NCBI GenBank assembly: GCA_002087915.1
Contig: LWDP01000050.1
Location: forward strand, 1 to 13,162
DNA from: Enterospora canceri
Lineage: Eukaryota > Microsporidia > Enterocytozoonidae
Length of the DNA: 13,162 nt
Direction: 5' to 3'
Position numbers and translations under genes: made by a program. The notes under the pieces were generated by a model. That model was not told where the DNA came from and made no database searches. It worked only from the letters and a program-made list of their open reading frames with translations. Positions 1-3,258 of this stretch are shown piece after piece (position 1 is the first letter of the stretch; each line of letters opens with the position of its first letter).

Positions 1-3000
1 CCTTACTACTATTACTATTATCCTTACTACTATTATTATCACCCTTACTACTATTGTTACTACTATTACTACTATTACCCTCTACCAGTATCTTCTCTAC
101 CACTTCATCTGGCTGTACTGTTACCACCCCCTTAGCACCACCAAATCGTATTTGATAGGCAGATGGCACGTAATTCAGCCCAAGTGACTCGGCAATGCCT
201 CTTCCAAGCTGACGCGTGATTACTCCAGCCCCATCAGTGAAGACGTATCCATTTCTGACCACGTCTCCAAGAACAACGACCCTGTCAACCCCAACGGCCT
301 CCTTCGTGGCACTGAATGCCTGTCCAATTCGCACCGCATACTTCCCAATGTTCTTGATCTTCCTGAAGTCACCCAGCCACCCTCTGACGTAATCGGCGCC
401 TATGACCCGTCTGCCTGCAATCAGCGTCGATATGAACCAGGCATTGTGGGCACTCATCTGGGCAGCAGTCATCACCAGAAAGAAGTACTTTCTGGGGCCA
501 ACAAACATCCCATCGAGGAGAGTGCGCCTGAAGAAGTCGTAGACGGCCTCCTGCCCCCTGGCCAGGTCGTTCTGGAACTTCGTGTCCTCGTCCTCTCGCA
601 GCGAGACGCGCAGGAAGCGGTCTGGCTCGAAGTTCCTGAGAACGCGGTTGGTGTCGTTTGGCTGCTCCCAGTTGTAGAAGGTGCGAAGGGGCGTGACCAG
701 AACAGATCGGATTTCAACTGTGGTCGAATGGTCTCTTTTGGGGCGGAATCGATTTGGTCGAATCTGCCTGAATTCGACCACTGCCTTTCTGAGGTTGATT
801 TTATCGAGGCGGTGAGAGAGGCGTCTTTCGAGGTGGCGGCAGAAGTCGCCTACGTCCGTGTTGTCTGCGATGTAGGCGAGGTCTCCTTCGGTGAAGACGT
901 CCGTGAGGAAGCGGGCCTTCCAGGAGACCAGGACGAGGACGTGGTAGAGGGAGGCGAAGTCGAGGAGGGCCGTGAAGTAGGCGACGATCTGGGACGAGTC
1001 CAGGAAGGAGAGCGAGGAGTCTCGTGGCTCCCTGACCTCGCTGTAGTGGACCACGGGATAGAACTTGGCCAATTGGGCAACGAGGTGCTCCAGGACGGAC
1101 GAGGGGGATACGTCCACGAAGTTGACCTCGTTTGGGGCGGATCCAACTCCGCTCTGGTCGAGTTGCACCGTGAATTTGATGTCTCCGCGTCTCTCGAACC
1201 AGTCGATCTCCTCCCTCGTGCATCGGTCCCATCTCGCCAGCTTCAGCTGTGCCATATTTTGGTATTTCATGCAAACTGTCGCATATTTCACATCCTGGCA
1301 GGAATAGACGCGAGGAAGTGTCTTCAGGAGGACGTAGACGTCGACGTGTCCATCTGCATCGATTCGGTCGTATTCTGCGATGATCTTCTCCACTGAGCTC
1401 CTTCTGATTTGGATCATGTAGTTTCTGAAGAAGATTGTGATTTCATTTGATGAGAATTCGGTGATGAATTTTGAACACGGTTTGCTATGGTTGTTGGATG
1501 ATAGCAGATTGATTCGGTAGTCAGATATGTCACTATCGTAGTTGTCGTTGTTATTACTATTATCGTAATTATTACTACCCTTATTACTATCATCCTTATT
1601 ACTACCCTTATTACTATTATTACTGTTACTGCCATCACTTTCCACTTCCACTTCAAACTTCATTCCGCCTATAAATTGGTAGTAGTTCACAACTGTACCA
1701 ATTTCAACTGAATCAGTCAGAACAGTCGCATTCAACACGGCTGGTCTCACAGGGTACTCAACTGGAAACCGACATGCTCCAAATACGCTCTTTACGGCGC
1801 ACCTGGAACTGGTTCTGGCCGTGACAAAGAAGTTGTTGTTGAACAGTTCGACGCCTTCAACAAGGGGACTCCTGAGAAGAGCCTGCTTCGTCTCCTCAAC
1901 GAAGGCGTAGAACTGGACCACCTCGCTGTCACTGCAGAAGAAGCAGTTGTTGCTGAAGCCATCGGTGTCAACCAGAATGCATTTCAGGCGACTGAGGACG
2001 TCCTGCTTCTTCTGCTGCCCCTCTGCCAGTTTATGCTCATACGAACAAAATTGATCCAATTCGTCTTTCTGATCAGGAGAGAGCATCAGAAAGAGCTGGG
2101 CCCTGAGATGGACGTAGACACGCGAGAAGAGGATCACCTTGGCCTGGCGACCCAGTCTGTGAAGCTGTGATACGCTGCTGGTCAGCACCAGATTCACCTT
2201 GATGTCCTTGTAGTTTTTGAATGTTCCGGCCGTGATTCGCCATTGCGTGGAATCGAAGGTGCCTTCGACCCTGTGCTTCAGAATCTGCCACAGAATCCGC
2301 ATCTCTGCCTCAGTGGCGTAGACGAAGACCTCGCGACTCTCCATCTCCTTCAGAAGCCTGAAGAATTCCAGGAGACGGGCACTGATGAACCCAGTTTCAA
2401 CGGTCTTATCAAATCTCTTACCAAAATGGATGAAATCAAATAGGCCGCTTTGAAGGAGCTCTCCTGCCTTGGAACTACCCTTTTTTACGCTGAAGAGAGT
2501 CACAGTCTCCCCACTGCTGATTCGGAATGCCCTCTCGTTCTTCTCAACTCGTTCAGCCTGATAAATCACAATCTTCCTCTCTTCAGCAAATCCACCGTAG
2601 AAGTTCAAGTTGTCGTGGCCAAGGGAGCATTTTGACGGTGTCGAAGCAGATTCGTTGAAGTAGCGGACTGGATTCAGGGTGAATTCAGCTTTGATCACCG
2701 AATTGGAGATGGAATCAAAGAGCTCGTCTGCCTCCTTGGAGATGGGGCCGTAGAAGTCGTCTTTGATCACAAACAGAAGGCGCTCCTGGTCGTCGACGAC
2801 CTGTTTGATCGCAGACAGCTCGCTCTCCTGCATTCCGCTTTGGACAAATGTCAGGCCACGGCGCAAGCCAGAGAAGTTTCTGGCCAATTTGTCCCTGAGG
2901 CTGTCACAGTTGCTGAAGATGACGCAATGGCCGTCTTGGAGTCTCTCGACGAAGTGAGAGAGATCGACGTAGGCAGAGACGCCCTTTCCTGGCAGTGGGC

Positions 3001-3115
3001 AGTAGATCAGCTCGCTTCCAGAAAAGAGCACCTTTGCGAGGCCACGGGAGTTTCGGTCCCTGAATTTCGACAAATTGTGGAATTTGGTTTCCAGATCGCT
3101 CCTAGAAGTGTCTAT
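1..3115 (-). CDS. RNA-dependent RNA polymerase (RNAi type) with degenerate Dicer-like helicase N terminus; 3' part outside the window
   Basis: Makes dsRNA from RNA templates in RNAi; cellular RDR/QDE-1/Rdp1 family. The frame is open from 3160 (after a TAG at 3163-3161) to the left edge. I number from an ATA codon at 3115, which directly follows a CCC motif; no in-frame ATG occurs before 2833. RdRP signatures: NRVLRNF and FLRVSLREDED near residues 820-845, AAQMSAHNAWF near 880, GDFRKIKNIGKYAVRIGQAF near 915-935, VFTDGAG near 960, and SAYQIRFGGAKGVV near 982-998. The catalytic DxDGD motif should lie beyond the window. Residues 1-440 resemble a worn SF2 helicase: R-x-R...L then PLPGKG (40-45) in the motif I position, CVIFSNCDSLRDKLA as motif Ia, REVFVYATEAEMRILWQIL (about 258-276) as motif IV, and VNLVLTSSV...RLGRQAKVILF as motif V/VI. 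A Ser/Asn/Lys-rich insert sits near residues 495-525, and another low-complexity run is at the left edge. RdRP identity is strong. The helicase reading is inference, as no clear DExH box is visible. Confidence 0.85.
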   Translation of the reverse strand, partial: MDTSRSDLETKFHNLSKFRDRNSRGLAKVLFSGSELIYCPLPGKGVSAYVDLSHFVERLQDGHCVIFSNCDSLRDKLARNFSGLRRGLTFVQSGMQESELSAIKQVVDDQERLLFVIKDDFYGPISKEADELFDSISNSVIKAEFTLNPVRYFNESASTPSKCSLGHDNLNFYGGFAEERKIVIYQAERVEKNERAFRISSGETVTLFSVKKGSSKAGELLQSGLFDFIHFGKRFDKTVETGFISARLLEFFRLLKEMESREVFVYATEAEMRILWQILKHRVEGTFDSTQWRITAGTFKNYKDIKVNLVLTSSVSQLHRLGRQAKVILFSRVYVHLRAQLFLMLSPDQKDELDQFCSYEHKLAEGQQKKQDVLSRLKCILVDTDGFSNNCFFCSDSEVVQFYAFVEETKQALLRSPLVEGVELFNNNFFVTARTSSRCAVKSVFGACRFPVEYPVRPAVLNATVLTDSVEIGTVVNYYQFIGGMKFEVEVESDGSNSNNSNKGSNKDDSNKGSNNYDNSNNNDNYDSDISDYRINLLSSNNHSKPCSKFITEFSSNEITIFFRNYMIQIRRSSVEKIIAEYDRIDADGHVDVYVLLKTLPRVYSCQDVKYATVCMKYQNMAQLKLARWDRCTREEIDWFERRGDIKFTVQLDQSGVGSAPNEVNFVDVSPSSVLEHLVAQLAKFYPVVHYSEVREPRDSSLSFLDSSQIVAYFTALLDFASLYHVLVLVSWKARFLTDVFTEGDLAYIADNTDVGDFCRHLERRLSHRLDKINLRKAVVEFRQIRPNRFRPKRDHSTTVEIRSVLVTPLRTFYNWEQPNDTNRVLRNFEPDRFLRVSLREDEDTKFQNDLARGQEAVYDFFRRTLLDGMFVGPRKYFFLVMTAAQMSAHNAWFISTLIAGRRVIGADYVRGWLGDFRKIKNIGKYAVRIGQAFSATKEAVGVDRVVVLGDVVRNGYVFTDGAGVITRQLGRGIAESLGLNYVPSAYQIRFGGAKGVVTVQPDEVVEKILVEGNSSNSSNNSSKGDNNSSKDNSNSSK

Positions 3116-3118
3116 GGG
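3116..3118 (-). promoter_or_regulatory. CCC start-proximal motif of the RdRP gene
   Basis: On the minus strand TTTTATCCC abuts an ATA codon, just as TTTTTACCC abuts the ATG of the Rae1 gene and GCCC abuts the ATGs of Clp1 and PSP1. The match in position and sequence is why 3115 is taken as the intended start, although the codon is ATA. Confidence 0.6.
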
Positions 3119-3176
3119 ATAAAATTTGACTGCTTTTTGGTTGTGGCTGCTTATAGGCGACTATGCTCAATTTTTC

Positions 3177-3258
3177 AGTATTGTGGCCGAGCGGTCTAAG
3201 GCGTTAGGTTCAAGCTCTAATCACATTGTGGTCGCGGGTTCGAATCCCGTCAATACTA
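3177..3258 (+). tRNA. tRNA-Leu (anticodon CAA), no intron
   Basis: The sequence folds into a complete class II cloverleaf of 82 bases. The acceptor stem AGTATTG pairs perfectly with CAATACT, with A as discriminator. The D arm is GCC/GGC. The anticodon arm TTAGG/TCTAA has loop TTCAAGC, placing CAA at 3211-3213 (reads UUG, Leu). The long variable arm is CAC-ATT-GTG, and the T arm GCGGG-TTCGAAT-CCCGT closes with one G-U pair. Pol III A box TGGCCGAGCGG (3184-3194) and B box GGTTCGAATCC (3237-3247) are intact. CCA is not encoded. There is no intron after the anticodon, although tRNA-Leu(CAA) often carries one in other eukaryotes. The gene diverges from the RdRP gene and lies just before Clp1. Confidence 0.97.

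Follow-up and report, generated by a model that had tools for sequence, protein, structure and literature searches.

A microsporidian RNA-dependent RNA polymerase with a predicted ATPase-dead helicase module at its N-terminus

Introduction

What precedes the polymerase domain in the RNA interference (RNAi)-type RNA-dependent RNA polymerase (RdRP) of Enterospora canceri? The gene lies at one end of contig LWDP01000050.1, which we analysed over its full 13,162 nucleotides (the window); this is all of contig C48 in a genome assembly of 2.24 Mb and 75 contigs. An earlier note on this DNA had proposed that the N-terminus is a superfamily 2 (SF2) helicase that has lost its catalytic residues, that a Dicer-type DUF283 region may follow, and that in this lineage the RdRP may have taken over the helicase of Dicer. 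Our analysis retains an RNAi RdRP with a dead SF2 helicase and finds no support for the DUF283 region or the move from Dicer. The best overall explanation is probably that this RNAi RdRP of a microsporidian belongs to the helicase-RdRP fusions and carries an ATPase-dead helicase, and we are highly confident of the identity of the gene and its domains.

Results

A polymerase frame that runs into the contig end

On the minus strand, a stop-free frame extends from 3160 to the contig end (1053 codons), with an in-frame stop upstream at 3161-3163. Residues are numbered from the codon at window 3118 as residue 1.

2..3160, minus strand: RNAi-type RdRP open frame, interrupted by the contig end; earliest in-frame ATG at 2833-2831
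104..697, minus strand: opening third of the polymerase's catalytic domain (PF05183 positions 1-209 of 582; PSAYQIR at 146-166)

The RdRP signatures previously placed at residues 820-998 were borne out by a PF05183 match over residues 808-1005, which scored 162 bits (cut-off 23.8). The DxDGD loop would fall past the contig end; it reads DLDGD in all 39 relatives of our alignment A1. Searches of the assembly with an RdRP model and two relatives found one RdRP place and did not find the second half.

A search with the window led to P0002 (37% over 28%), and a search with the polymerase region of P0002, in which 7992 candidates were scored, led to many microsporidian RdRPs (best 120 of 1224 matches). 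Twelve of the 39 relatives carry species names, all in the phylum Microsporidia by NCBI taxonomy, including Nosema granulosis, Vittaforma corneae, Vavraia culicis and Hepatospora eriocheir. The remaining 27 were assigned to microsporidia by similarity; the 67-row tree described below gives a placement for 24 of the 39 as well, and a Pfam scan of the relatives covered 24 of 39. Beyond the RdRP domain match, P0002 and P0051 have a further 733 and 746 residues with no Pfam family, and the family consensus after the polymerase domain contains conserved stretches, e.g. GMFDxND and FNLL.

The N-terminal segment resembles a helicase in predicted fold and in family profile

AlphaFold2 (AF2), run on the alignment of relatives, predicted a RecA-like SF2 helicase fold for residues 20-375. 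The structural match within residues 1-450, on which the helicase proposal turned, was found with AF2 and structure comparison, and the proposed SF2 helicase without catalytic residues is borne out by the model over residues 20-375. An SF2 helicase fold is therefore predicted N-terminal to the RdRP on one chain, as in helicase-RdRP fusions. The segments ahead of the catalytic domain are as follows:

2621..3061, minus strand: RecA1-like half of the putative pseudo-helicase, residues 20-166 (AF2, structure comparison, weak profile half-test with E 0.021)
1994..2389, minus strand: RecA2-like half of the putative pseudo-helicase, residues 244-375 (AF2, structure comparison, profile)
1751..1924, minus strand: RRM-like unit, residues 399-456, the area once called DUF283 (secondary structure of the AF2 model)
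1289..1741, minus strand: PH-like domain, residues 460-610 (AF2, structure comparison; Asn/Ser-rich insert at 1484-1657)
725..1288, minus strand: linker from the PH-like to the catalytic domain (alignment, AF2, structure comparison)

The DUF283 region had been placed near residues 420-440. Residues 399-449 were modelled as beta-alpha-beta-beta-alpha, which is more RRM-like, and there was no DUF283 match in Pfam, where this segment was not searched separately; we judge DUF283 unlikely for residues 399-456.

The N-terminal alignment comprised the window and 33 of the 39 A1 relatives. P0002, P0058, P0061, P0074, P0081 and P0087, each of which has fewer residues before the polymerase core, were omitted. 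In this alignment, the N-terminal segment is homologous throughout the family and its conserved points fall at the expected SF2 motif sites: LxYxP at motif I, IFDD or IFED at motif II, TxSPxxF at motif III, SxKL before motif IV, and IxFDFxP in the motif V/VI strand. We compared the family profile with 12 intact helicase-RdRP fusions using hhalign. With insertions kept, the score was 55.3 (E 4.6e-6) with the window included and 45.2 (E 1.1e-4) without it; in the first controls, the best of 40 shuffles reached about 20.0 and the reversed profile 15.3. Those controls were built from insertion-stripped rows while the test profile kept its insertions, so the fair control is the insertion-stripped comparison. 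In this, the window plus 33 relatives scored 43.0 (E 2e-4) against 18.3 for the best of 60 column shuffles. Tested separately against shuffles, the RecA1 half scored 24.0 vs 18.0 and the RecA2 half 41.9 vs 20.1. The PLPGKG remnant, the motif-IV-like region (from 2383 downward) and the V/VI strand (2081-2134) all lie where the earlier note had put them, in register with the intact helicases. Judged by these profiles, the helicase likeness is above chance at family level.

The catalytic motifs are lost

The motif sites in the window were located as follows:

2978..2998, minus strand: motif I (Walker A) site, PLPGKGV (family alignment)
2753..2767, minus strand: motif II site, IKDDF; the family has mostly IFDD or IFED (family alignment)
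2669..2680, minus strand: motif III site, TLNP; the family has TxSPxxF (T in 32/34 rows, P in 33/34)
2375..2383, minus strand: SxK heading the Helicase_C-like half, SAR in the window (S in 30/34 rows, K in 28/34)
2081..2134, minus strand: motif V/VI strand; the family has IxFDFxP here and no QxxGRxR motif (profile and alignment)

Within their first 450 residues, none of the 33 relatives has GxGK[ST] or QxxGRx[RS], each of which is kept in 12/12 intact fusions. A DExH string occurs in 2/33 relatives, at the motif II site in neither, and is kept in all 12 intact fusions. The window itself is without intact ATPase motifs I, II and VI and does not have what defines an active SF2 DExD/H helicase. 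The stretch from motif III to SxKL/SPK spans 51-134 residues in the 34 rows (96 in the window), compared to 157-171 in the 7 intact fusions, of 9, in which it was measurable. With motifs I and VI lost, motif II not DExH and this stretch shortened, we read the N-terminal segment as a predicted ATPase-dead pseudo-helicase.

Weighing the helicase reading against chance and decay

A number of observations, on the likeness itself and on the state of the gene, weigh against this reading. Single-sequence AF2 gave a mean pLDDT of 33 and no usable model. Foldseek TM-scores were low (at most 0.29 by query length), which reflects the multi-domain model, and in the VIA-align comparison DEAD-box, SWI2/SNF2 and RIG-I chains tied. 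The RecA1 half-test is weak (E 0.021, probability 2.3). The window sequence alone was not above chance (20.0 vs 24.4 for the best of 100 shuffles), its best match still lying in the same register as that of the family profile. Global hhalign was unstable, with E moving from 5e-9 to 0.47 (below shuffles) when insertions were stripped; since E shifted with insertion handling, we discarded these values as evidence.

As for the gene, there is no ATG on the minus strand between 3175 and 2833; the first, at 2833-2831, lies within the RecA1 fold. Before DLDGD there are 1106-1487 residues in 33/39 relatives and 580-997 in the other six, in which the first 600 residues contain no TxSPxxF string. One of these, P0074, begins like the full-length members and is about 250 residues short, so part of the N-terminal module may at times be lost internally. 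The relative closest to the window is P0098 (53% over 209 columns), and its predicted protein starts at the polymerase. In 3 of 11 close pairs, RecA1 identity is only 18-29%, and among all pairs of the 33 relatives the RecA halves have a median of 18-19% vs 22% for PH and linker.

Could the segment be an ordinary RdRP N-terminal domain that looks like a helicase by chance? This would fit the window-alone result and the failure of sequence libraries to recognise the segment. Against PDB sequences at E<=10 there were only three irrelevant matches; against Pfam at E<=10 there was no match, HMMER filters discarding most matches above 0.1; and against a 5.8-billion protein collection at E<=1 only the window's own protein was returned, among 7995 candidates scored. 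The libraries miss the domain, which explains why the pseudo-helicase is missing from annotation. However, the SF2 fold and the family profile stand above like-for-like controls, and the alignment with plant RDR2 (from its residue ~100) does not start until model residue ~460, at the PH-like domain. We therefore judge a purely RdRP N-terminal domain highly improbable.

A second alternative is that what is left of the helicase is a fossil without function, retained only because the polymerase folds around it, in a gene that may be decaying here. The loss of motifs I and VI, a first ATG only at residue 96, an assembly in which the catalytic half was not found and the shorter N-termini of six relatives would all be expected from this. 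However, the segment aligns throughout in 33/39 relatives, although genomes in this group are known to be reduced, and the frame is open across 1053 codons. For the 11 close pairs, the RecA1 and RecA2 halves have median identities of 50% and 46%, near the values for PH (53%) and the linker (48%); the polymerase part reaches 79%. On these identities, the putative pseudo-helicase segment is not drifting freely. Some of the six short N-termini are likely truncated sequences, given the label 'partial' on P0058 and the short contigs that carry some of the others. Low-complexity stretches are a common place for assembly breaks, and the contig end, in an Asn/Ser-coding stretch of this kind, is likely to be one. 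Taken together, we consider a fossil unlikely and prefer a retained pseudo-helicase.

Two side observations concern the frame. It carries Asn/Ser-rich low-complexity inserts at window 2-103, which is the contig end, and 1484-1657 (both minus strand). The region 2831-3175 (minus strand), ahead of RdRP residue 96, is ATG-free, yet the frame there is open and family-conserved. The possible start of the gene is bounded by a tRNA gene just upstream:

3177..3258, plus strand: tRNA-Leu(CAA), 13 bases past the upstream stop of the RdRP frame

The fusion appears older than the microsporidia

In a 67-row tree of RdRP domains, the microsporidian RdRPs and the fusions were grouped (SH-like approximate likelihood-ratio test, SH-aLRT, 98), and the RdRP domain of the window, with 35% of columns, fell inside the microsporidian clade. 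In the fusion clade, 13 of 19 rows carry a precomputed Pfam helicase and 6 do not; P0091, P0093 and P0099 were called fusions by eye (in both trees), and P0101, P0104 and P0110 are without a helicase. A plant-rooted 45-row tree without the window, for which rows were picked after the 67-row result, again joined microsporidia and fusions (ultrafast bootstrap, UFBoot, 96 / SH-aLRT 97). The best 45-row tree with microsporidia and other fungi as one clade was rejected in the approximately unbiased (AU) test (p-AU 0.025). Since the microsporidian RdRPs group with RdRPs that bear an intact helicase, the fusion looks older than the microsporidia. So it would either predate them or have arrived as a unit, and the microsporidian change would be the loss of the ATPase.

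For P0097, the one fusion tested, the helicase had its best solved-structure matches in AncD1D2, which we take to be an ancestral Dicer helicase, DCL1 and RIG-I/LGP2. Separately, the intact fusions P0049 and P0050 show a weak, sub-cut-off match to the RIG-I C-terminal domain at the N-terminus (E 0.062 and 0.022, respectively), which may mean that they hold parts of RIG-I in another order.

The earlier suggestion that Dicer's helicase was transferred to the RdRP within microsporidia does not fare well. It draws on a Dicer in this genome that shows RNase III domains only (Pfam) and on the incomplete helicases reported for the microsporidian Dicer clade (PMC12663654). However, non-microsporidian helicase-RdRP fusions group with the microsporidian RdRPs, and a published phylogeny puts the helicases of RDRs in one clade and those of Dicers outside it, at a support of 100% (PMC4791657). 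We judge such a transfer very unlikely.

Another alternative is that microsporidia acquired the helicase-RdRP gene from a donor, such as an animal host, and that the ATPase was lost afterwards; this would leave our identification of the domain unchanged. The neighbouring clade holds the rotifer Brachionus calyciflorus (P0100) rather than other fungi. However, this is the sole row in the clade with an organism name, and the AU test gave only p 0.025. Helicase-RdRP fusions also occur in Dictyostelium (PMC3661229, PMC4894637), and in Peronosporomycetes (oomycetes), Hydra and Nematostella as the RDR gamma group (PMC4791657). Given the fusions in Dictyostelium and oomycetes, an ancient fusion that other fungi have lost fits equally well, and we hold acquisition from a donor to be improbable.

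Dicer and Argonaute are encoded elsewhere in the genome

Dicer, with its two RNase III domains, has a gene of its own on C30 (L011 1263-5135, minus strand), and the genome also encodes an Argonaute on C57. No RNase III domain was found by Pfam on the window part of the RdRP chain. The N-terminal ~700 residues of Dicer matched no Pfam family and no PDB sequence, and RNase III was its sole Pfam domain type. By eye, parts of the Dicer N-terminus resemble a worn Helicase_C; in the profile test, Dicer residues 1-620 against intact helicases (hhalign) scored 21.7, below the shuffle maximum of 27.5 (n = 100). When the RdRP N-terminal segment was compared with this Dicer by BLASTP, nothing of note matched (best E 0.27). 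We recognised no additional gene for a Dicer-type helicase in the genome, where a match on C19 and weak ones on C1, C64 and C8 were not inspected; the best non-RdRP helicase match, on C54, is Brr2/Ski2-like by eye.

Other genes in the window

Elsewhere in the window lie three tandem KDEL-receptor (PF00810) genes, pairwise 30, 34 and 49% identical, which are the only three PF00810 matches found in the genome:

8300-9088, 9528-10163 and 10364-11059, minus strand: KDEL-receptor genes

Discussion

The predicted order of domains is a tandem-RecA, ATPase-dead pseudo-helicase, an RRM-like unit, a PH-like domain, a linker and a double-barrel polymerase. An ancestor with a working double-stranded RNA (dsRNA) helicase may have lost the use of ATP while retaining the fold, which could then serve as a passive module that holds the template or product duplex at the polymerase. 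RNA synthesis would stay in the barrel, and the N-terminus would be expected to neither unwind nor translocate. The pseudo-helicase might also dock a Dicer that has no recognisable helicase. A putative RNA-holding or docking role of this sort is a tentative suggestion, which we rate at somewhat under even chances. A broader scenario, in which microsporidian RNAi switched from ATP-driven to passive dsRNA handling and the pseudo-helicase clamps or docks the duplex for a Dicer that has likewise lost a working helicase, is more doubtful. If true, the whole microsporidian small interfering RNA (siRNA) pathway would run without a Dicer/RIG-I-type ATPase.

Helicase-RdRP fusions are known in few scattered lineages. 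RdRPs of the window's clade are present in at least 12 named species of microsporidia, which are reduced parasites, and the full N-termini appear to keep the fold without Walker A and arginine-finger motifs. This would provide a natural experiment on the contribution of a Dicer/RIG-I-type helicase fold to small-RNA synthesis besides ATP hydrolysis. The grouping of microsporidian RdRPs with the fusion clade and not with other fungal RdRPs also bears on the origin of the microsporidian RNAi machinery.

Comparison with known systems

We found no description of a helicase in microsporidian RdRPs in the open-licence full-text literature, a coverage that mostly excludes subscription papers. A funRNA table gives microsporidia three numbers, the last being 0 (PMC4290597). 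The intact fusions, among them P0097, P0100 from Brachionus and P0102, are neighbours of the microsporidian RdRPs in the tree and have the helicase in the same place; the 12 used here all keep the three motifs GxGK[ST], DExH and QxxGRx[RS], in contrast to the microsporidian relatives, which are without motifs I and VI. An ATPase-dead helicase is also seen in XPF, of the XPF/Hef group, although XPF is a DNA repair nuclease and the window protein an RNA polymerase. In plant RDR2, nothing in the rows shown matched the helicase part of the window.

Microsporidia are absent among the fusions listed in the part of PMC4791657 drawn on here. The RDR gamma fusions of Peronosporomycetes, Hydra and Nematostella have the same domain order as the window RdRP, and the oomycete RDRs retain GxGKT and DE[C/A]H, unlike the microsporidian RdRPs (PMC4791657). 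In Dictyostelium, Dicers are without a helicase, and RrpA, RrpB and RrpC, like the window, have a helicase and an RNAi RdRP on one chain (PMC3661229, PMC4894637). Their motif II is still DExH (DEVH; PMC4791657), whereas in the window motifs I and VI are gone and motif II is not DExH.
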